From positions 124,001 to 188,000 of the forward strand of contig CATQHQ010000001.1 in NCBI GenBank assembly GCA_958296005.1: DNA of 64,000 bases, in the 5' to 3' direction. The number at the start of each line of letters is the position of its first letter. Within the stretch, counting starts at the first letter, position 1. A program made the translations under genes and the position numbers. The stretch comes from Longimicrobiales bacterium (lineage in GTDB: Bacteria > Gemmatimonadota > Gemmatimonadetes > Longimicrobiales > Gaopeijiaceae). Under the pieces are notes generated by a model. The model was not told where the DNA came from. It saw only the letters and a program-made list of their open reading frames with translations, and searched no databases. Positions 3,763 through 13,279 of the stretch are shown here, piece by piece.

Positions 3763-4470
3763 CTACCAGTCGATGGCGGCGGGCTTGGGTCGGTAGCGCT
3801 CGAAGCCCTGGCGGGCCAAGAAGGAGGCGACGGCAAGCATCACTACAGGGACCGACAGCGCCGCGACGGCGCCCAGGACCCAAGCCGAGCCGGAGTTAGC
3901 TAGGAACTCGACGGCCGTTGGCAACCAAGCGCGGACCCATTGTTCAAAGAAGTCGTCGACTACTAACAGGACAATCAGGAACGCGGCAGGCGCGAAGGCA
4001 AGCTTGTTGACATCGAAGCGGATCAGGGCACTGCACCCCAAGCACATGGCGGCAGACGCCAGGGGCCAAACCGTCAGGAACGCGGCCAGAAGCCAGCCGA
4101 CGCCGCCGTTGGCGCCGACCGCCGGAAGTACCATCCAGTTTATCGCCCCGGCGGCCAGTGCGGCGAGCGGGAAGGCGCCCAGTGCGATCGACACGAAGGC
4201 AGCGAAAACGAGAGTGCCGCTTGGAACAGGCAACGTGGTCGTGAACTCCATCTGTCCGGTCACTTTGTCCTTGATGATGTTCATCGGAACCCCCATAGCG
4301 ACGCTCGCCGCGGCGACGAACAGCAACCAGATCGTCGTCCCCGTGCTGGCACGGCCGACGACTTGCAGAACCAGCGTGCCCACCACGGCAATGCACAGTG
4401 CCACGAGAAGGTTTTTCTTGTTGCGTCGGAACTCGACGCCGAGCAGGCTACGGATGTGACGTGTGTTCAT
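3763..4470 (-). CDS. ABC-2 type transporter permease (peptide cluster)
   Basis: A 235-residue protein with about six TM helices (LLVALCIAVVGTLVLQVV, IWLLFVAAASVAMGV, LVFAAFVSIALGAFPLAALAAG and others) and the ABC-2 permease layout used by BcrB/NatB-type exporters. It overlaps the ATPase gene by 23 bp and is the last gene of the operon that begins with the C39 peptidase. Two-component BcrAB-like pumps in bacteriocin operons commonly give self-immunity by expelling peptide from the membrane. That role, or export of a mature peptide, is inferred from context. Confidence 0.8.
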   Translation of the reverse strand: MNTRHIRSLLGVEFRRNKKNLLVALCIAVVGTLVLQVVGRASTGTTIWLLFVAAASVAMGVPMNIIKDKVTGQMEFTTTLPVPSGTLVFAAFVSIALGAFPLAALAAGAINWMVLPAVGANGGVGWLLAAFLTVWPLASAAMCLGCSALIRFDVNKLAFAPAAFLIVLLVVDDFFEQWVRAWLPTAVEFLANSGSAWVLGAVAALSVPVVMLAVASFLARQGFERYRPKPAAIDW

Positions 4471-5173
4471 CGGACGATAGGGCGGAGTAGAGGAGGCGGG
4501 AGAGAGGGGCTTCCGGATCGCGACTGCGAAGGGCGGTGACGGTCGTGTCGCCCACGAGCTTGCCTTTGCGCAGCATGACGATCCTGTCTGCGATCTGTTC
4601 CACGTCTTCGAGAATGTGGCTCGAGAACAGAACCAAGCGGTCGCGTCCCGTGGACGCCGCGTCGTTGATCACGGCAAGCAGCTCGCCGCGCATCAGGGGA
4701 TCGATGCCGGAGGTAGGTTCGTCGAGGATGAGGATGGGCGGGCGGTGCGCTTCGGCGGCCACCAGGGACAGCTTCACGGCCATGCCCTTGGAGAGCGTGC
4801 CGACCTTGGAGCTGGAGGGCAAGTCCAAACGGCGGAGGAGCGTCCTCGCATAGCCGTCGTCCCATGTCGGGAAGAAGTTGGACAGAAAGTCCAGGTGCTC
4901 CGCCACGGACATCCAGCCGAAGCCCAAGAGGCGCTCCGGAAGAAAGCCGATCTCTGTACGAATCCCCGGCAGGCAAGAGCGCACTTCCCGTCCGCCGATC
5001 TCCACGGTGCCCTCGTAATGTCTCGACCTGCCGGCGATCGCCTTCAGCGTGGTGCTCTTGCCCGCGCCGTTGGCCCCCACGATAGCAACCCGCTCGCTGG
5101 ACTTGAATTCGAGGTCGAGGGGTTCAAGGAGAAAGTCCGGATACCGAACGCTGAACTCACGCAGTCGTACCAT
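4448..5173 (-). CDS. ABC transporter ATP-binding protein (BcrA/CcmA type)
   Basis: A 241-residue single ABC domain. Walker A is GANGAGKST near residue 35, the signature is LSKGMAVK (a common variant of LSGGQ in BcrA-type ATPases), Walker B is ILILDEPTSGIDP, and a switch His follows (LFSSHILEDVEQ). It has no membrane segment and pairs with the overlapping permease. In this operon it most plausibly powers producer immunity to, or export of, the Cys-rich peptides encoded upstream. The ATG at 5173 is 18 bp after the Yip1-like gene. Confidence 0.88.
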   Translation of the reverse strand: MVRLREFSVRYPDFLLEPLDLEFKSSERVAIVGANGAGKSTTLKAIAGRSRHYEGTVEIGGREVRSCLPGIRTEIGFLPERLLGFGWMSVAEHLDFLSNFFPTWDDGYARTLLRRLDLPSSSKVGTLSKGMAVKLSLVAAEAHRPPILILDEPTSGIDPLMRGELLAVINDAASTGRDRLVLFSSHILEDVEQIADRIVMLRKGKLVGDTTVTALRSRDPEAPLSRLLYSALSSDEHTSHP

Positions 5174-5191
5174 GGAGCGTAGCTAGTCCAG

Positions 5192-5842
5192 TTAGAGGAG
5201 GGAGGCTCTGGCACCCGCGAGCCCTATGAGCCCGATCCAGAAGAGCGCGGCCAGTCCACCTGCTGCCAGCCGCTCGATCTCAACGACGCGTCGGAAAGCC
5301 AGGTACAGGAATACGTACCAAGCAATATGCATCAATGTCACGCCGCTGGCCATGGACTGCAAGACCGGGTGGGACGCCGGCACGAACGCCGCGAGTCCCA
5401 TCGCTGCGCCGAGGTCCTCGGGGGAGGTGGGCGTCCCGCTGGTGGCTCGCACGAACACGGCGGCGAGGACCCCTTGGGTCGCCAGAATGGCTTCGCCGTA
5501 CAGCAGAACCGAGAAGAGAGGACGCAGCCGGCGCTCGGAGTTGACCAGCATCAGCACCGCCCAACCCACAACGGCCAGCACCCCCGCCTTGGCAAGGATC
5601 ACGAGGGGTGCCAGCACGGCCATGGCCCAGAAGATCCCGGCCACGGCCTCGACCGCATCGGCGGGCAGGGTGCTCGCCATGAGGGGCCACAGGGAATAGG
5701 CCGACGCAAGGGAGAACAGCCACGCTACGACGATCGGCGCCAGAATGGGCCTGTGGGTGCGGATGTCGTCCATGCCGGGGACGAGGTGGCTGAAGAACCT
5801 CTTGACGGCGGAGACGAACTTGGAGGGCTCGTTGTGGGTCAC
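5192..5842 (-). CDS. Yip1-like multi-pass membrane protein (peptide cluster)
   Basis: A 216-residue protein with five hydrophobic segments after a short cytoplasmic N-terminus (AVKRFFSHLVPGMDDIRTHRPILAPIVVAWLFSLA). This is the pattern of the Yip1/YIPF domain family, often seen beside ABC-2 transporters. The GTG start at 5842 overlaps the stop of the thioredoxin-like gene (GTGA), implying translational coupling. The biochemical role is unknown; an accessory immunity or maturation membrane factor is an inference from its place between the oxidoreductase and the ABC genes. Confidence 0.65.
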   Translation of the reverse strand: MTHNEPSKFVSAVKRFFSHLVPGMDDIRTHRPILAPIVVAWLFSLASAYSLWPLMASTLPADAVEAVAGIFWAMAVLAPLVILAKAGVLAVVGWAVLMLVNSERRLRPLFSVLLYGEAILATQGVLAAVFVRATSGTPTSPEDLGAAMGLAAFVPASHPVLQSMASGVTLMHIAWYVFLYLAFRRVVEIERLAAGGLAALFWIGLIGLAGARASLL

Positions 5843-6402
5843 GGCGCGTCGTCTCCAGCACCGGCGGGACGCATGCCGATCGCCTGAATGGATTCCGTCA
5901 GGCGCTGGCGCGTGCTTCGGCCGACGTGAACCAACCGCACGGTATCGGTCGCGTCGATCCAGAACGTGACCGGCACGGCGCTCACGCTCAGCGCTTCGGC
6001 AACGCTACCGTCCGCGTCCTTCAGCACGTTGCCGCGGAGAGACGGCGGCACCCATGACGCGTCGTTCGTGTCCGAGGAAGGCGAGGCGACGATGCGGAGC
6101 TCGCGCGGTCCGATCTCGGCCGCCAGCGATTCCCAGAGACGAAGCTCAGCTTTGCAGTGGATGCAGGTGTCGTTGACGTACATGAGGGCAACCGGGCGTG
6201 CCAAGTCCTCTCCGGAACTCCACGGCTCGCCTACTTGGCGTTGCGCGGCGACGGACGGAAACGACCATGGAGGCTCGGGCGGCGCTTCTCCGGCTCCCGC
6301 TCGGTCCAGCAACAGAAGCGGGGTGGCGGCACCTGTGACGGCAACCGCGGCCGCGAGCGCGGCCAGGACCTTCTTCTTGGCGAGTGATCTCGTTGGTTTC
6401 AT
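5839..6402 (-). CDS. Membrane-anchored thioredoxin-like oxidoreductase (peptide cluster)
   Basis: A 187-residue protein with an N-terminal signal anchor (KKKVLAALAAAVAVTGAATPLLLL) and an extracytoplasmic thioredoxin fold. The redox motif is CIHC (MYVNDTCIHCKAEL, about residue 80) and the cis-Pro loop is SVSAVPVTFWI. It sits directly after five genes for secreted peptides that each carry two Cys pairs, so a job in forming or shuffling their disulfides outside the membrane is the natural inference. A general TlpA-like reductase cannot be excluded. It overlaps the next gene by 4 bp. Confidence 0.8.
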   Translation of the reverse strand: MKPTRSLAKKKVLAALAAAVAVTGAATPLLLLDRAGAGEAPPEPPWSFPSVAAQRQVGEPWSSGEDLARPVALMYVNDTCIHCKAELRLWESLAAEIGPRELRIVASPSSDTNDASWVPPSLRGNVLKDADGSVAEALSVSAVPVTFWIDATDTVRLVHVGRSTRQRLTESIQAIGMRPAGAGDDAP

Positions 6403-6509
6403 GTTCGCTTTGGTTTGGGGAAGTGGCCCGGGAGCGTCAAGCGACGCCCCCGGGCCGAGCGGGCAGCAGGGCGATGCCGATTCCTGCTTCTCGCAGCTGG
6501 GGAAGCCGC

Positions 6510-6809
6510 CTAGGCGCTCGCGCAGGCTCCAATGCAGAATGCGGTTATGCCGGGATTCGCGATCGCCAGTGCGATCAGACCGGCGACGCTAGCACCACCG
6601 GAGAGCAAGGCCGCCCCGATGCACCCGATGCAGACGAGTCTGGCCGACCAGTGCCCAGCTCCGGCGACGTCGGCTTCCGCCGCTAGAACTGCGACGGATT
6701 GGGCGGTTGTCGTCGTTTCCACGACCTGCCGAGTACCGCTGGTTGTGGAGTGAGCGAGGACCAGGGTGGCAAGCAGTGCCAGGGACAGGCGAGTTGTTGT
6801 CGATTTCAT
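6510..6809 (-). CDS. Exported Cys-rich peptide precursor E
   Basis: A 99-residue precursor and the most divergent of five paralogues. The Sec-type signal is RLSLALLATLVLAHS. A pro-region ends in ADVAGAG, followed by a 47-residue hydrophobic core (53-99) that starts HW and carries C60-x2-C63 and C92-x3-C96. The middle of the core is nearly all Gly, Ala, Ile and Leu, enough for two short membrane helices. The core framework and the G-x-G before the core match the other four peptides although the signal sequence is unrelated, so the core defines the family. It resembles no peptide family I know. Confidence 0.72.
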   Translation of the reverse strand: MKSTTTRLSLALLATLVLAHSTTSGTRQVVETTTTAQSVAVLAAEADVAGAGHWSARLVCIGCIGAALLSGGASVAGLIALAIANPGITAFCIGACASA

Positions 6810-6843
6810 GGATGTTGTCCTTGTGTTTGATGGAAGGCAGAGG

Positions 6844-7137
6844 TCAATCGAACGCTTCGAAGCAGACAGCGACGCACGCGGCGACTGCAATCGTTGACCC
6901 CGGCATGTTGGCAGCTGCCACGATGGCACCCCAGCCTGACATGATCAGCGCGACGGCACCGGCGCCGCAGGCGGCGCAGGCGAATATGGCACCCCAGGGC
7001 GGGCCGTTGCCTTGGACGTCGGCCAGTGCGGCGGATGTGGGCCCGGTGCCGGGTGTTGGCGACAGCGATACGGAGCTCAGCGTGGAAAGGCTGAGTGACA
7101 GAGAAAGGGCGAGGACGAGTGTGCGAGACTTAGTCAT
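6844..7137 (-). CDS. Exported Cys-rich peptide precursor D
   Basis: A 97-residue precursor with the family start MTKSRTLVLALSLSLSLS. The pro-region is shorter than in A-C and ends in ADVQGNG. The 52-residue core (46-97) begins PPW and carries C54-x2-C57 and C88-x3-C92, with a strongly hydrophobic Gly/Ala-rich centre and an acidic tail (FEAFD). The ATG at 7137 follows a GGAG-type RBS that is conserved between paralogues (AGGAGATCAAC). Its function is inferred only from the cluster: a secreted, proteolytically matured, disulfide-bonded peptide. Confidence 0.75.
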   Translation of the reverse strand: MTKSRTLVLALSLSLSLSTLSSVSLSPTPGTGPTSAALADVQGNGPPWGAIFACAACGAGAVALIMSGWGAIVAAANMPGSTIAVAACVAVCFEAFD

Positions 7138-7184
7138 GTTGATCTCCTGACGAAGAGGGTTGATGTGGGATGGTGGCAAGTGGG

Positions 7185-7493
7185 CTAGAGGCAGGCCCTA
7201 TAGCATGCGCTGAGTACGTAGGCGCCCACTGCCTTTACGATGACGAGGGGGCCGTCTAGTAGGGCGGATGCCACGCTGAAGCAGGCCAAACACGCCGGTA
7301 TCATCCAATCCGGGCCGCTACCGGTGACGTCGACGGCGTCGGCGACAGGAGCCTGGGCAACTTCGAGTGCGGCTGGTGACGCGGCGGACCCTGTGGACAC
7401 GGGCACCGAGATGGCAGCAGGCGATCCAGCGTGGATGCCAAGGAGGCCGACGGAGAGTGAAAGGGCGAGGACGAGCGTGCGAGACTTAGTCAT
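7185..7493 (-). CDS. Exported Cys-rich peptide precursor C
   Basis: A 102-residue precursor. Residues 1-60 (signal peptide TLVLALSLSVGLLGIHAG plus pro-region ending DVTGSG) are almost identical to precursors A and B. The 42-residue core (61-102) differs and carries C68-x2-C71 and C97-x3-C101 around a hydrophobic stretch (SVASALLDGPLVIVKAVGAYVL). The ATG at 7493 has the conserved GGGAGATCAAC leader. Conserved leader plus variable core is the usual signature of toxin or RiPP precursor families that share one processing enzyme, here presumably the upstream C39 peptidase. Confidence 0.78.
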   Translation of the reverse strand: MTKSRTLVLALSLSVGLLGIHAGSPAAISVPVSTGSAASPAALEVAQAPVADAVDVTGSGPDWMIPACLACFSVASALLDGPLVIVKAVGAYVLSACYRACL

Positions 7494-7540
7494 GTTGATC
7501 TCCCGACGAAGAGGGTTGATGTGCGATGGCGGCAGGTATG

Positions 7541-7840
7541 CTAGAAGCACGCCCTTGCGCATCCGGCAAGTGCGGGGCCGCTCAATACGAAGGCGGGACT
7601 GAGGGCTAGGGAGACTCCCACCCCGAAGCAGGTCCAACAGGCCCACGGCTTCCACCACGGGCCGCTGCCGGTAACGTCGAAGGCGTTGGCGACAGGAGCC
7701 TGGGCAACTTCGAGTGCGGCTGATGGCGCGGCGGACCCTGTGGACACGGGTGCCGAGATGGCAACCGGCGATCCAGCGTGGATGCCAAGGAGGCCGACGG
7801 AGAGTGAAAGGGCGAGGACGAGTGTGCGAGACTTGTTCAT
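7541..7840 (-). CDS. Exported Cys-rich peptide precursor B
   Basis: A 99-residue precursor with the same 60-residue signal and pro-region as A and C (MNKSRTLVLALSLSVGLLGI start, DVTGSG end). The 39-residue core (61-99) is Trp-rich at its start (PWWKPWACWTC), with C68-x2-C71 and C94-x3-C98, and ends in an aromatic residue. The RBS GGGAG lies six bases before the ATG. It is one of three units that arose by recent tandem duplication (see the repeat feature). Confidence 0.78.
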   Translation of the reverse strand: MNKSRTLVLALSLSVGLLGIHAGSPVAISAPVSTGSAAPSAALEVAQAPVANAFDVTGSGPWWKPWACWTCFGVGVSLALSPAFVLSGPALAGCARACF

Positions 7841-7888
7841 GTTGATCTCCCGACGAAGGGGGTTGGTGTGCGATGGTGGCCAGGTGCG

Positions 7889-8185
7889 CTAGTAGCAGGC
7901 CTTTGCGCATCGGCGGATTACAGCGCCGCCCAGGGAGGCGAAGGGAGTGGCGGTTAGGCCGCCTCCCACCCCGAAGCAAGCCGAACACAGCCACTTCTTC
8001 CACGGGCCGCTGCCGGTAACGTCGAAGGCGTCGGCGATAGGAGCCTGGGCAACTTCGAATGCGGCTGGTGACGCGGCGGACCCTGTGGACACGGGTGCCG
8101 AGATGGCAGCAGGCGATCCAGCGTGGATGCCGAGGAGGCCGACGGAGAGTGAAAGGGCGAGGACGAGTGTGCGAGACTTAGTCAT
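7889..8185 (-). CDS. Exported Cys-rich peptide precursor A
   Basis: A 98-residue precursor and the first peptide gene after the peptidase. Signal peptide and pro-region span 1-60, ending DVTGSG. The core is 61-98, with cationic ends (PWKKWLC and RRCAKACY), C67-x2-C70 and C93-x3-C97, separated by a Gly-rich hydrophobic segment. A strong RBS (GGGAGGAAACACC) precedes the ATG at 8185, and the ATG overlaps the stop of the C39 gene as ATGA, so peptidase and first peptide are translationally coupled. Confidence 0.8.
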   Translation of the reverse strand: MTKSRTLVLALSLSVGLLGIHAGSPAAISAPVSTGSAASPAAFEVAQAPIADAFDVTGSGPWKKWLCSACFGVGGGLTATPFASLGGAVIRRCAKACY

Positions 8186-8847
8186 GGTGTTTCCTCCCGA
8201 GAAGGGGGTGAGTTGGGAACCGCGGCGTACGTCGCCGCGGAGGTTCCGGTCCGCTGGCCGAGGACGATCGCCTCGCCGGACCAGATCGACCGGAATGCCG
8301 CTTCGCCGATCGAGTAGCGGCCCACTTGGGGGTCCAGAATGGTGAAGCGGTCCCCGGCCCGTGCCGTCACGGCGACGAAGTGGCTCTCGTGCACCCACGC
8401 GATGAACGGCGTGGGGACGTGCTGCCGCTCCTCCCAGGCGACCCGCACCAGGGAGAGGTCCAGGCCGAAGACGGCAGCAGCCCGGATCAGGCCGCTGGCC
8501 CGGGTACCCTGCGGGCCAGTGCCCGCCAGCACCTCCAGTGAATCCGTGGCAGGCGCGTCGATGCCAAGGGCTTCGAACACGTTCGCCAGAGCAGCGGGTC
8601 CGCAGTCGTTCAGCCCCGACTGCAGGATCACCCCTTCGCGTCCCTGGTAGCTACCTCCGAGCACCATCACCTGCGCCCGCGCTGCCGCACGACTCAAGCG
8701 CGTCGGGTCGGTTGCCAGCAGTCCCGCGGCCACCACCGTCAGGGGCGCCGCGAGGAGAACCGATACAGCCGTGGCCCGACGGCGGCGTCCCCTAGGGGGG
8801 AGAGGGTGCCGCGCAGGACATGGAGGGTGCCGAAGAGGAGGGGTCAT
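8182..8847 (-). CDS. Stand-alone membrane-anchored C39-like cysteine peptidase
   Basis: A 221-residue protein. An Arg-rich cytoplasmic N-terminus and one TM or signal segment (25-45) precede a papain-like C39 domain: Gln76 (ILQSG), Cys82 (NDCGPAALANVF), His156 (ESHFVAV) and Asp172 (ILDPQ). C39 peptidases cut bacteriocin leaders after GG/GA-type motifs but are usually the cytoplasmic N-terminal domain of ABC exporters. Here there is no fused transporter, and the predicted topology puts the domain outside the membrane, matching substrates with Sec signals. The likely cut is at the conserved G-x-G before each core (inference). First gene of the operon. Confidence 0.85.
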   Translation of the reverse strand: MTPPLRHPPCPARHPLPPRGRRRRATAVSVLLAAPLTVVAAGLLATDPTRLSRAAARAQVMVLGGSYQGREGVILQSGLNDCGPAALANVFEALGIDAPATDSLEVLAGTGPQGTRASGLIRAAAVFGLDLSLVRVAWEERQHVPTPFIAWVHESHFVAVTARAGDRFTILDPQVGRYSIGEAAFRSIWSGEAIVLGQRTGTSAATYAAVPNSPPSREETP

Positions 8848-8925
8848 CCGGGGGGAAGTCGGGGTTGGGAGTGGGCCTTCAATCCGCGTGCCCCGAGCTT
8901 ACAACCCCCGAATGGGCGCTTCCAT

Positions 8926-8946
8926 GTCCCGTTGGGACTATTTTTT
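8926..8946 (+). terminator. Possible terminator-like hairpin upstream of the C39 gene
   Basis: On the plus strand a 5-bp stem (GTCCC / GGGAC, loop GTT) is followed by TA and six T residues. The orientation would stop rightward transcription, antisense to the peptide operon, and no plus-strand gene is evident to its left. It may be chance. The rest of 8848-9050 holds only repeated GTGCCGG-type words and presumably the operon promoter, which I cannot place. Confidence 0.3.
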
Positions 8947-9050
8947 CTTCGTGCCGGAACCCAGCTTTTCTGCGTGCCGGAAACCAGCCGATTTGCCGGC
9001 GGAAACTCTGGTCGGAGGGACCAGAATCTGGTGCCGGGCGGCTCTAGGCT

Positions 9051-9680
9051 TTACCTCGCCTCGATTTCCTCCAGCGCCGCCAGGACGTCCTCGTTGGACG
9101 GGCGCACGCGGTAGTCGACCTCGACGAACCCCCACCGAACGACTCCCTCTTTGTCGATCACGTAGGTCGCCGGATGGGGTATCGGACGGTTGGGGGGCGC
9201 ATCGGCGTTGAAGAGGCCGTAGCGGTCGATCACCCGGTGGTCCGGGTCGGAGAGCATGGTGAAGTCAGGGGCTGGACCCTCGTCGTCCACGATCCTGTCG
9301 ATCATCATCTGCTGCTTCTCCCGGTCGTCCACCGAAACGGTCACGATCTCCGTCTCCGCCTTGAGGGCGGGGGGCAGCAGCTCTCTCAGCTCGCCGAGCT
9401 GACGGGCGCACCACGGTCACCAGTGCCCTCGGTAGAAGACGAGGACGACGTTCTTCCTGCCGCGGTAGTCCGCCAGGGCGATCGTCTCGCCGCCGTAGGA
9501 CTCCAGAGCGAACAGCGGGGCCTCCGTGCCCACCGCCACCCGCTCCAGGTCCGTGGCGGGCAGGTCGTGGCCGTCTACGGGGCCGACGTTCGGGGCTTGG
9601 GCGAAGGCGCCCGGCGCGAAAGCCGTCGTCGCGGCGACCAACGCGCCGAGCGCCGTCGGGGGTCGAATCCAGGAGATCAT
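9051..9680 (-). CDS. Peroxiredoxin selenoprotein (AhpC/TSA family) with in-frame UGA
   Basis: If the TGA at 9417-9419 is read as selenocysteine, one 209-residue protein results. It has a signal peptide (ALGALVAATTAFAPGAFAQ) and a thioredoxin-fold AhpC/TSA domain, with Sec88 in YRGHW-U-PWCARQL. That is exactly where relatives have the peroxidatic Cys (RGxWCPxC), leaving a UxxC redox pair. Downstream, VSVDDREKQQMMID and PHPATYVIDKEGVVRWGF are standard Prx segments. The ATG at 9680 has a GAGGAG RBS. The gene would reduce peroxides or act as a thiol oxidoreductase in the periplasm. A nonsense mutation is the alternative, but the intact second half and the hairpin favour Sec. Confidence 0.82.
9386..9402 (-). 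promoter_or_regulatory. Bacterial SECIS-like hairpin
   Basis: Fourteen bases after the UGA the transcript can form a perfect 7-bp stem (TCAGCTC / GAGCTGA) closed by a GGC loop. The loop is 22-24 nt from the UGA, within the range for bacterial SECIS elements, which need a short stem with G in the apical loop for SelB binding. It lies within the coding region, as is normal in bacteria. Confidence 0.7.
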
Positions 9681-9810
9681 GGGCAGCTCCTCGCCGGCAT
9701 CTGGACTGGCGGGTTCGTGGAAGGCCGTCCGGGGGACACCTCGCAAGATAGCACCGGGTCCACAAGCGGGTCGGCGGTTCGTCGTCCTGGGCGACGCCCT
9801 CCCGACAGGG

Positions 9811-11082
9811 CTAGGCCGCAGCCAGCGCTTGGTCCAGGTCCTCCACGATGTCGTCGATGTGCTCGATCCCAACGGAGAGCCGCACCAAGTCCTCCGAAAC
9901 GCCGGTGGCCGACAGCTCCTCCGCCGACAGCTGGCGGTGGGTCGTGGTGGCCGGATGGGTCGCCAGAGACTTGGCGTCGCCGATGTTCACCAGGCGGGTG
10001 ACCAGCTTCAGCGCGTCGATGAACCGCGCGCCGGCGTCGCGTCCGCCCTTGATCCCGAAGCTGAGGATCCCCGCCGCGCGCCCGCCCGCATACTTCTGAA
10101 GGAGCGGCTGCTCCGGGCTGTCGGTCAGTCCCGCGTAGCGCACCCACTCGACCTGCGGGTGCCGCCGAAGGTGCTCCGCCACCGCCAGGGCGTTGTCGCA
10201 GATGCGGTCCATCCGCAACGGGAGCGTCTCCAGCCCCTGGAGGGCGAGGAAGGCGGTGTGGGGCGAGATCGCGGCACCGATGTTGCGGAGCGGCACCACT
10301 CTGGCTCGCACGATGTAGGCCAGCTCGCCCACGGCCTCGGTGTAGACCATGCCGTGGTAGGAGGGGTCGGGCTGGGTAAGGCTGGGGAAGCGCTCGGCGT
10401 TTGCGGCCCAGTCGAAGCGGCCCGAATCGACGAGGGCGCCGCCGATGATCGTACCGTGGCCGCCGATGTACTTCGTGACCGAATGGACGACCACATCGGC
10501 GCCGTGCTCGAAGGGCCGGGACAGGTAGGGCGTGGGGACCGTGTTGTCGACGATCACCGGCACCCCGCGGGCATGGGCCACCTCGGCGATCCGCTCCACA
10601 TCGGCCACGTTCCCCGCGGGGTTTCCGATCGACTCGCAGTAGACCGCCTTGGTCCGCTCGTCGATCTGCGCCGCGATGGCGTCGAAGTCGTTCGGCCCCA
10701 CGAACCGGGTCTCGACCCCCAGCTGCGGGAAGGTGTGGGCGAAGAGGTTGTAGGTGCCGCCGTAGAGGGTGGACGTGCTCACGATGTTGTCGCCCGCCCC
10801 GGCGATGGTGAGGACCGCGTAGGTCGAAGCCGCCTGCCCCGACGAGAGCGCCAGCGCGCCCACGCCTCCTTCCATCGCCGCCAGCCGTTGCTCCAGCACG
10901 GCCTGGGTCGGGTTCATGATGCGGGTGTAGATGTTGCCCTCGACCTTGAGGTCGAAGAGGTCGGCCCCGTGCTGGGTATCGTCGAAGGCGTACGCCGTCG
11001 TCTGGTAGATCGGCACCGCGACCGCCTTTGTGGTCGGGTCCGGTTCGTAGCCGGCGTGGACCGCCAGCGTCTCAATTCTCAT
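9811..11082 (-). CDS. metY: O-acetylhomoserine sulfhydrylase / Cys-Met PLP enzyme
   Basis: A 423-residue PLP enzyme of the Cys/Met metabolism family. N-terminal TLAVHAGYEPD and PIYQTTAYAF, the mid-chain SSGQAAST phosphate-binding region and the PLP Lys in SVTKYIGGHGT are typical. Length and the LFDLKVEGNIYTRIMNPT segment fit O-acetylhomoserine (thiol)-lyase, which makes homocysteine from O-acetylhomoserine and sulfide; cystathionine gamma-synthase is the alternative. The start at 11082 has an AGGAG RBS; longer in-frame starts lack one. The 121 bp to brxL hold no recognisable gene. Confidence 0.9.
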   Translation of the reverse strand: MRIETLAVHAGYEPDPTTKAVAVPIYQTTAYAFDDTQHGADLFDLKVEGNIYTRIMNPTQAVLEQRLAAMEGGVGALALSSGQAASTYAVLTIAGAGDNIVSTSTLYGGTYNLFAHTFPQLGVETRFVGPNDFDAIAAQIDERTKAVYCESIGNPAGNVADVERIAEVAHARGVPVIVDNTVPTPYLSRPFEHGADVVVHSVTKYIGGHGTIIGGALVDSGRFDWAANAERFPSLTQPDPSYHGMVYTEAVGELAYIVRARVVPLRNIGAAISPHTAFLALQGLETLPLRMDRICDNALAVAEHLRRHPQVEWVRYAGLTDSPEQPLLQKYAGGRAAGILSFGIKGGRDAGARFIDALKLVTRLVNIGDAKSLATHPATTTHRQLSAEELSATGVSEDLVRLSVGIEHIDDIVEDLDQALAAA

Positions 11083-11203
11083 CGGTGTTCTCCTAGGGAG
11101 TGGTTCAGCGCTGGCTGGCCGGTCGTCAGCCGGGTTGCGCCGAGCAGTCCGAAGGATACGCAAGGGCGGCCCCAGGGCTTACCGGCTTGCCCTTGGTGCC
11201 CGC

Positions 11204-13279
11204 CTACTCCAGCGCCTTGAACACCGCGTCTGGACCGTCTCCGTAGAACTCGATGTTCAGCCGAGTCCAGACGTCGTCGGGGAGGTTGGCCAGCTCGCGG
11301 CGCGCCCCGACGGGCATCAGCAGCACCGACGCCTGCTTGTCGGCGGCCAGCTCGGCGGTCGCCACGGGGTCGGGGACGCGCTCCAAGGAGCCGCCCAGGT
11401 TGAGGGCACCGGCCACGACGGCACCGCCTCGGGTGCGGCGGTCCAGCAACGAGCCGGTCATGGCGGCCAGTACAGCCAAGCCTAGGCCGGCACCCGATCG
11501 GTCGGCGTCGAAGGGGCGCAGCTGGATGGCGTACTCGTGGCCGCGAGGGTCCCGAGCGCCGACCAGCTCCTTGGCGTGGGCGTACAGGTTCTGCTCGCCG
11601 ATGCGCATGCTCTGCCGGAACGCAGGAGGCACCGGTTGGTTCAGGATCTTCGCGCCGCTCCCTGGTCCCGTCACGACCTCGATCCGGTAGAGCCCCGGCC
11701 CCGATCCCTCCGTGCCGGAGCCGATCGCCCACACTTGGCCCGCGGGCAGGGGGTCGGCGCTGATCGCCTCGCTGCTCCGAAGCTCGGGCGTCGCGACGAA
11801 CTGCTCGGCGCCCTCCACGCCCAAGGTGAAGGAGAAGTGCGTGTCCCGGAACTCGGCCTTCAGGCAGCGTTTCTGCTGTTCCTTGACCCGGCGCCGCGAC
11901 TCCAGAGCCAGGCGGACGATCCACTCCAGGTCGTCGTCGTCCACCGTCATGGTCGGGTCGGGGAAGAGAAGCTTGGCCAGCCCCGAGACCGTCTTCTGCG
12001 CGGCCTCGATATCCCGGCCCGAAAGCGCGCCGCCCCAGAAGACCCGGTTCTGAAGGAGCGGCACCCGCGTCGTCTCCCGGAGCCGCGTCCAGCACGCGCT
12101 CAAGAAGTCGTTGACGAGGCCGAAGTGGTCCGTCAGGTGCTTGCGGGGGTCGAGCTTGGGAAAGTCCCATCCCGGCGCATAGGCGTGAATGCGGTCGTGG
12201 AACGCCGTGTCGTCGCGCATCTGGGTCGGCAAGGGGCTCAACAGGTGGCCGATCCGCTGCTGCTGCTCCACCGAGACGTCGAAGTTGCCCACCATCACCA
12301 GCGATCCTTCGGCGCGGATGCTCTCCTTGCCCCGGCTGAACTCTCCCGACGCCATGTAGCCCTTCATGATGTTCACGCCGTCCTTCTGGTCGAAGGAGAT
12401 GCCGGCGACCTCGTCGAAGCACACCACGTCGTACTGGCAAACCAGCCCCCGCTGCCCGTTCGCCATGTTCACGAACATCTTGGCCACCGTGGCCTTTCCC
12501 CCCGAGAGCAGGTGGGAGTAGGGCGACAGCTGCTGGTACATGTGACTCTTGCCGGTGCCCCGGGGGCCAAGTTCGACCAAGTTGTAGTTGCGTTCGACGA
12601 ATGGGACCATCCGCAGCAGGGCCACCCGCTTGCCTTGGTCGTCCATCGCCGACGGCTCAAGGCCGGCCGAGCGCAGAAGGAGGTCAAGCCACTCGTCGGT
12701 GGTGAAAGCGTGACGGCCCTGGGCCAGGACGGCCAGCACGTTGGGGTCCGACATCTGCACGGGGCGAAGCGATGCGATGCCGAAGGGCTGCCCCTTGGTC
12801 TCCAGCGCCACCACGGCATCGTACTCCAGCGCGACCTCGGCGTAGAAGCCGTCGGACAAGAGCCGCCCGTGTCGCTTGACCAGCTCGTCGCCGATGCGCG
12901 CGTCCTTCAGCAAGAGGCTGGGCAGCTCCGCCACGTAGCAGTCGTTCCGGGCGTCCAGCCGGGCGCGCACCACGTCGATGAGCCGAACCGAGCCCTCTTC
13001 TCTCGCTCGCGAGCGGAAGACCTCTCGGTCGCCGGGGCGGACGGTGCGGCCGTCCAGCTGCTTCTCGACGATCGCCAGCCCTTCCGCGATCTCGTTGTCG
13101 TCCACGCTGGCGCAGTAGCGGCCCAGCAGGAACTCCACCACGTAGGTGGGCACCGGGTACTGGCGCGCGTAGCGCCGCACCAGGTCCTTGCGCACTAGGT
13201 AGCCGGGGAAGGCAGCGGCGGCCTTGCGGTCGAGAGCGTCCATGCGAGTGTCGCCGCCGGTGCGGACGGAGTCGGTCAA
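11204..13279 (-). CDS. brxL: BREX protein BrxL (AAA+ ATPase with Lon-like domain)
   Basis: A 691-residue protein. An N-terminal DNA-binding-type region precedes an AAA+ core with Walker A GPRGTGKSH (about residue 240) and Walker B VVCFDEVAGISF. The C-terminal Lon-protease-like domain contains DRSGAGLGLAVLAA and a downstream Lys (ELAADKQAS). BrxL is the last gene of type 1 BREX operons; characterised homologues form DNA-binding AAA+ rings needed for phage restriction. Its start overlaps the pglZ stop by 4 bp, making it the distal gene of this locus. Confidence 0.93.
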   Translation of the reverse strand: MTDSVRTGGDTRMDALDRKAAAAFPGYLVRKDLVRRYARQYPVPTYVVEFLLGRYCASVDDNEIAEGLAIVEKQLDGRTVRPGDREVFRSRAREEGSVRLIDVVRARLDARNDCYVAELPSLLLKDARIGDELVKRHGRLLSDGFYAEVALEYDAVVALETKGQPFGIASLRPVQMSDPNVLAVLAQGRHAFTTDEWLDLLLRSAGLEPSAMDDQGKRVALLRMVPFVERNYNLVELGPRGTGKSHMYQQLSPYSHLLSGGKATVAKMFVNMANGQRGLVCQYDVVCFDEVAGISFDQKDGVNIMKGYMASGEFSRGKESIRAEGSLVMVGNFDVSVEQQQRIGHLLSPLPTQMRDDTAFHDRIHAYAPGWDFPKLDPRKHLTDHFGLVNDFLSACWTRLRETTRVPLLQNRVFWGGALSGRDIEAAQKTVSGLAKLLFPDPTMTVDDDDLEWIVRLALESRRRVKEQQKRCLKAEFRDTHFSFTLGVEGAEQFVATPELRSSEAISADPLPAGQVWAIGSGTEGSGPGLYRIEVVTGPGSGAKILNQPVPPAFRQSMRIGEQNLYAHAKELVGARDPRGHEYAIQLRPFDADRSGAGLGLAVLAAMTGSLLDRRTRGGAVVAGALNLGGSLERVPDPVATAELAADKQASVLLMPVGARRELANLPDDVWTRLNIEFYGDGPDAVFKALE

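Follow-up and report, generated by a model that had tools for sequence, protein, structure and literature searches.

Layout of a ten-gene peptide cluster

The window analysed here is a 64,000 nt stretch of contig CATQHQ010000001.1, taken from a 3.06 Mb genome of a Longimicrobiales bacterium whose named relatives are Gemmatimonadota. Between positions 8847 and 3763 its minus strand carries ten tightly packed genes, which encode a C39 peptidase, five exported cysteine-bearing peptides, a thioredoxin-fold protein, a YknW-like membrane protein and the two halves of an ABC transporter. An initial annotation had described these as one operon, and each of the ten genes was recovered in the same place. 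The C39 and pep1 genes overlap by 4 nt, as do those for the thioredoxin-fold and YknW-like proteins, whilst the ATPase and permease genes overlap by 23 nt, as expected of one transcription unit. Spacing between the peptide genes is 34–48 nt, and a gap of 107 nt separates pep5 from the thioredoxin gene. Literature searches returned no description of this cluster.

The first gene (8182..8847, start codon uncertain) encodes a stand-alone C39 peptidase with an N-terminal membrane anchor (Pfam PF03412, 3e-23). Its predicted catalytic residues, Q76, C82, H156 and D172, are invariant in 11 C39 orthologues, and the protein aligns with the C39 domain of PCAT1 (PDB profile match, E 6e-19), such that catalytic residues and fold both place it in peptidase family C39, as initially annotated. 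At the N-terminus an Arg-rich stretch precedes a single hydrophobic segment; the protein is therefore predicted to be oriented N-in, with its catalytic domain outside, a location for which FapD is a known periplasmic precedent (PMC5557850).

The five precursor genes that follow fall into two sets. Pep1 (7889..8185; predicted core 7892–8008), pep2 (7541..7840; core 7544–7663) and pep3 (7185..7493; core 7188–7316) are of an extra type, whilst pep4 (6844..7137; core 6847–7005, 53 aa) and pep5 (6510..6809; core 6513–6656, 48 aa) are the conserved type-A and type-B peptides, each present once per cluster. Pep1 displays a Sec-like leader, the site VTGS/GP (the slash marking the predicted cut) and a CxxC...CxxxC core, and the proposal that all five are small exported proteins with such cysteine cores was confirmed, each having a Sec-type leader.

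The gene at 5839..6402 encodes a thioredoxin-fold, membrane-anchored protein with the motif CIHC, which is DsbE/ResA-like (E 3e-6) and has a Pfam match to an AhpC-TSA-like fold (6e-5). The CxxC is invariant in 14 of 14 orthologues, in agreement with the extracytoplasmic disulfide oxidoreductase first suggested. Next is an integral membrane protein with a GTG start (5192..5842), originally described as Yip1-like. Similarity to Yip1 is indeed present (Pfam 0.001, below cut-off), and the protein is more precisely YknW-like, with 8 of 14 orthologues matching the NCBIfam model YknW_fam (NF052650) at E < 0.01 (best 6e-12), although below its curated cut-off. The protein from the window matches this model at E 1e-6, its 28.3 bits falling below the curated cut-off of 110 bits and thus outside the YknW family; judged by sequence, it is a distant relative of YknW only.

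The final two genes encode an ABC transporter ATPase (4448..5173; Pfam ABC_tran, 2e-25) and an ABC-2-type membrane permease (3763..4470), the latter with a weak ABC2_membrane_3 match and retained alongside the ATPase in 18 clusters. The pair had been called BcrAB-like and is not specifically of that type; the ATPase is closest to NCBIfam models of the PmtA/DrrA type, PmtA first amongst them (E 3e-37), with all matches far below cut-off. PmtA is the exporter of phenol-soluble modulins (PSMs).

Conservation of the cluster and of its peptide pair

When 146 genomes of the order were searched for C39, 12 further loci with identical gene order emerged, one of which (L036) ends at a contig edge after three peptides. 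Peptide and C39 profiles were also applied to 395 genomes from the phylum. Strong peptide matches were obtained in 20 of these, every one carrying the cluster, and 18 of the 20 possess the specific C39 (≥97 bits); a diverged C39 is found in G191 and G206. The next-best matches to the C39 profile are nearly all C39 domains of ABC transporters of 600–1200 residues. Across the 395 genomes there was neither a strong peptide match outside the cluster nor a specific C39 without peptides. The initial annotation had named peptide homologues in other contexts, without C39 or ABC genes, as evidence that would count against it; the peptides instead occur with the cluster in 20 of 20 genomes. Moreover, the order C39, peptides, thioredoxin, YknW-like protein, ATPase and permease recurs in all 18 canonical clusters that are not cut by a contig end (18/18, including one known only from a scan of genome contigs), which argues that the gene set is not a product of chance.

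Canonical clusters span at least four families within one class of Gemmatimonadota, and two additional genomes hold a diverged version. When two strict peptide patterns were applied to the genomes of 84,980 species, Gemmatimonadota alone yielded the full cluster, although patterns of this stringency do not prove its absence elsewhere. Two genomes, G260 and G182, gave weak peptide matches (E about 1e-4) that were dismissed as noise, neither genome holding a cluster or a qualifying peptide reading frame. Distant C39 matches in other phyla are not accompanied by thioredoxin or YknW-like genes, and most belong to other systems. One Neomarinimicrobiota locus (L064, 8971–11138) has a membrane-anchored C39 that stands alone, and 1.2 kb downstream of it lies the gene for a Sec-type peptide of 90 aa, which displays a VVGG site and two Cys within its predicted core; these features hint at a Sec plus C39 route that may be wider than Gemmatimonadota. 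At L118 (7786–13055) and L119 (8211–14732) a diverged variant of the cluster has FtsX/MacB-like permease genes downstream.

With regard to chromosomal position, the cluster adjoins a peroxiredoxin (Prx) gene in nine loci of the window's family, and in most of one genus it lies between this gene and one for an M28 peptidase. Amongst cluster-free relatives of that genus, some have a Prx–M28 gap of only about 190–330 bp (L136, L138, L142 and L144), and others harbour different cassettes in the same slot. A slot that is fixed but only patchily occupied is in keeping with an accessory conflict system, among other readings. In the cluster-free relative L141, the slot (6850–11560) contains genes for an ABC ATPase with its permease, for a protein resembling a beta-propeller and for two small, exported proteins that bear Cys; it may be a peptide-cassette hot spot.

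In total, 61 candidate precursors were extracted, a few of which are probably spurious frames (e.g. L040_2, L040_3 and L117_2). Core profiles identify in each canonical cluster one strong type-A (27–74 bits) and one strong type-B peptide (37–71 bits), adjacent to each other, with zero to four extra peptides beside them. G035 is a partial exception, as its type-A core is present but lacks a clear start codon. Within the window, pep4 scores 69.5 bits with the type-A profile versus 6.0 with type-B, pep5 scores 58.9 bits with type-B versus 4.6 with type-A, and pep1–3 are assigned to neither. Types A and B are themselves related (hhalign, E 1.3e-6). In an alignment of 21 peptides the four Cys and a single motif Gly never vary, and the cores are mostly hydrophobic (mean hydropathy about 1.0–1.6) and near-neutral. 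The five peptides of the window share the Cys framework noted initially and are not equivalent, consisting of one A/B pair and three local paralogues. None of the five matches a Pfam or NCBIfam family above cut-off; a DUF6153 match of pep1 and pep2 was below it and was not used.

The leaders have a positively charged n-region, followed by a hydrophobic stretch and then by a pro-segment, for the most part acidic, that ends in [VIL]-x-G-x before G or Q. This pattern was found in 44 of 45 peptides scanned, with L055_3 caught at an off-register upstream match and displaying VVGGQ further down. The double-glycine sites of C39 enzymes have a hydrophobic residue at −4 and Gly at −2, so the leader appears to join a Sec-type signal to a site of this kind. 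The predicted cut register is supported by the first core Cys, which is placed at residue 8–9 in nearly all A/B cores.

The three extra peptides of the window are tandem copies of recent origin, whose leaders have stayed nearly identical whilst the cores changed fast. Amino acid identity between them is 88–93 % for the leaders versus 38–49 % for the cores, and upstream sequence is common to pep2–4. Within the cores, non-synonymous divergence (dN 0.42–0.60) exceeds synonymous divergence (dS 0.25–0.28), in 87, 99 and 98 % of bootstraps for the three pairs; this is suggestive of diversifying selection, and, at about 40 codons, is not proof of it.

Structure prediction of the cores, as recommended in the initial annotation, returned helix hairpins for both types. 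AlphaFold2 (AF2) modelled the type-A core of pep4 with a predicted local distance difference test score (pLDDT) of 79 and a predicted template modelling score (pTM) of 0.45, and the type-B core of pep5, with helices at residues 3–18, 24–33 and 35–47, at pLDDT 76.5 and pTM 0.45. In these models, pairing of C1 with C4 and of C2 with C3 would staple the two core helices together.

A proposed two-peptide product and its alternatives

From these data it is likely that the cluster specifies a secreted two-peptide product that is processed and disulfide-stapled. The earlier proposal of a family of secreted, proteolytically matured peptides with disulfide bonds and dedicated maturation genes is well supported, and to it can be added the A/B pair, a two-step leader of Sec plus double-glycine type, the presence/absence slot and the expansion of paralogues. 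As to function, we favour a two-peptide, disulfide-hairpin bacteriocin-like system, in antimicrobial use and with YknW/ABC self-protection, to which, by analogy with known systems, a probability of roughly 0.6 is given. The chances appear evenly split as to whether this amounts to a new class of diderm bacteriocins, defined by Sec-exported four-Cys helix-hairpin pairs, a periplasmic C39, a dedicated disulfide oxidoreductase, YknW/ABC-2 self-protection and core diversification by tandem duplication.

In such a system the precursors would be exported by Sec and the hydrophobic leader probably removed by signal peptidase. The membrane-anchored C39 would then trim the acidic pro-segment after [VIL]-x-G-x, as suggested by the conserved motif, the intact catalytic residues and the strict co-occurrence of enzyme and peptides. 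Thereafter, the thioredoxin-fold protein may form or proofread two disulfides, most simply C1–C4 and C2–C3, locking a hydrophobic helix hairpin, a step to which the invariant Cys and the AF2 hairpins both point. The obligate A and B peptides might jointly target the membranes of competing bacteria, with extras such as pep1–3 diversifying specificity. Lastly, the YknW-like protein and the ABC pair could clear mature peptide from the producer's inner membrane, by analogy with SDP/YknWXYZ and PSM/Pmt. For double-glycine bacteriocins a single C39-ABC transporter normally carries out both maturation and export, whereas here export by Sec and trimming by a C39 outside the membrane appear to be separated. 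The cluster consequently offers a clean test of periplasmic toxin maturation by C39, a question that FapD left open, and its approximately 60 natural peptides are a resource for antimicrobial tests.

The cluster resembles gallocin A in its product and SDP in its self-protection, and by the tests made is a member of neither family. Gallocin A is a near-neutral two-peptide bacteriocin of disulfide-stapled helix hairpins that needs a thioredoxin-domain protein; together with thermophilin 13, brochocin C and ABP-118 it shares with the cluster two adjacent peptides of 40–60 residues with few charges, predicted antiparallel, cystine-tied helix hairpins, C39-type leader removal and a thioredoxin-domain helper (PMC10100652). 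The class IIb trait of two different peptides side by side and always together is present in every canonical cluster. A double-glycine leader cut by a C39 fused to the exporting ABC transporter is not, as in this Gram-positive group BlpAB both cuts and exports, whereas the cluster relies on Sec and a separate, membrane-anchored C39. Peptides of this group also have two Cys each rather than four, immunity is conferred by the small peptide GIP, and there is no sequence match to the cluster.

SDP is a single peptide with one disulfide, exported by Sec and processed later, and sdpABC is not known to include a C39. No SDP family was present amongst the Pfam and NCBIfam matches of the window's proteins, a comparison that involved no SDP sequence directly. 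The likeness to SDP drawn in the initial annotation is strengthened, since the Yip1-like protein resembles YknW, the Yip1-family subunit of the YknWXYZ pump that protects Bacillus from this disulfide-bonded peptide of 40-odd residues (PMC4887032). YknYZ is of the MacB type and the canonical pump of the ABC-2 type; the FtsX/MacB-like permeases of L118 and L119 may be a second echo of YknWXYZ, and alongside the YknW similarity they make self-protection the best guess for the pump half. Yip1-family proteins would accordingly acquire a second apparent link to hydrophobic-peptide self-protection. Sublancin and other glycocins likewise have helix pairs with nested disulfides, thioredoxin-like helpers and C39 maturation, including at a Gly-Lys site (PMC12457901), but are glycosylated and C39-ABC-exported, whilst the cluster is without a glycosyltransferase.

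A number of observations weigh against a bacteriocin-like system. At P1, 26 of 44 peptides have G, A or S and the remainder R, Q, T, N or others, several sites thus having R, Q, T, N or D where G, A or S is usual for C39; a C39 domain that cuts after Gly-Lys (PMC12457901) offers a parallel to the GR/G of cluster peptides. Pfam and NCBIfam scans of 21 peptides revealed no bacteriocin families, and searches of these databases and of PDB linked the peptides to no known bacteriocin or solved structure, whether by sequence or by fold: the fold search with both core models yielded nothing at E ≤ 10, and the PDB sequence search with core profiles no meaningful match. The AF2 core models are themselves shallow, resting on 13–14 sequences with pTM 0.45. 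GxxxG occurs in 9 of 13 A cores and 8 of 14 B cores, and is not enriched over shuffled cores. The thioredoxin-like protein of L118 keeps one active-site Cys, with CPAS instead of CxxC. Finally, no gene for outer-membrane exit lies within the cluster, and nearly all clusters come from metagenome-assembled genomes.

Pheromones are also amongst C39-matured peptides, and the mature products could be kin signals sensed by a receptor and exported or cleared by the ABC pair, with the variable cores of the extras as pherotypes. This seems improbable, as the clusters share no recurrent gene family of sensor kinases or receptors, and two obligate, very hydrophobic four-Cys hairpins with a self-protection-like pump better fit a membrane-active product. 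Somewhat more doubtful still is a structural or accessory role for the peptides in a cell-envelope machine or surface fibre whose subunits C39 would mature. FapD, a stand-alone C39 outside the cytoplasmic membrane that acts on Sec-exported proteins and is needed for secretion of the Pseudomonas amyloid fibre, lends this a model (PMC5557850), and the fixed chromosomal place in the window's family suggests vertical descent. Substrates of FapD lack a canonical cut site, however, whereas those of the cluster have a clear [VIL]xGx site; a FapF-like pore is absent and no amyloid repeats were noticed, whilst the cluster's uneven occurrence within one genus, where some sites are near-empty, its variable paralogue number and the fast core change fit conflict better than a structural part.

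Little credence is given to pep1–3 being decaying, functionless duplicates that leave only the A/B pair of consequence: they match neither core profile, but retain intact frames, leader, site and four Cys, their excess of dN over dS is unexpected under drift, and extras occur independently in other clusters. Least probable of these is cofactor loading akin to cytochrome c maturation (CcmAB and CcmG), with the Cys pairs binding a metal or cofactor. The ABC pair and DsbE-like protein do recall Ccm genes, and CxxC and CxxxC could ligate metal; nevertheless, the CxxCH heme motif is absent from the aligned peptides, for which cytochrome c maturation was rejected, other usual ligands are lacking in the cores, no Ccm family in Pfam or NCBIfam is matched above cut-off, and the C39 with its double-glycine-like site would have no role.

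Neighbouring genes

An in-frame TGA interrupts the peroxiredoxin gene of the window (9051–9809, minus strand) where the active site is encoded (FYRGHW-U-PWC), and the product is a probable selenoprotein. A TGA lies within the peroxiredoxin match in 12 of 12 relatives examined, and a tRNA-Sec match in the window's genome scores 75 bits. Further along, positions 11204–34650 hold an anti-phage defence island of BREX type, comprising BrxL, two PglX, a helicase, a DUF2290 protein, a pAgo-like protein and BrxC.

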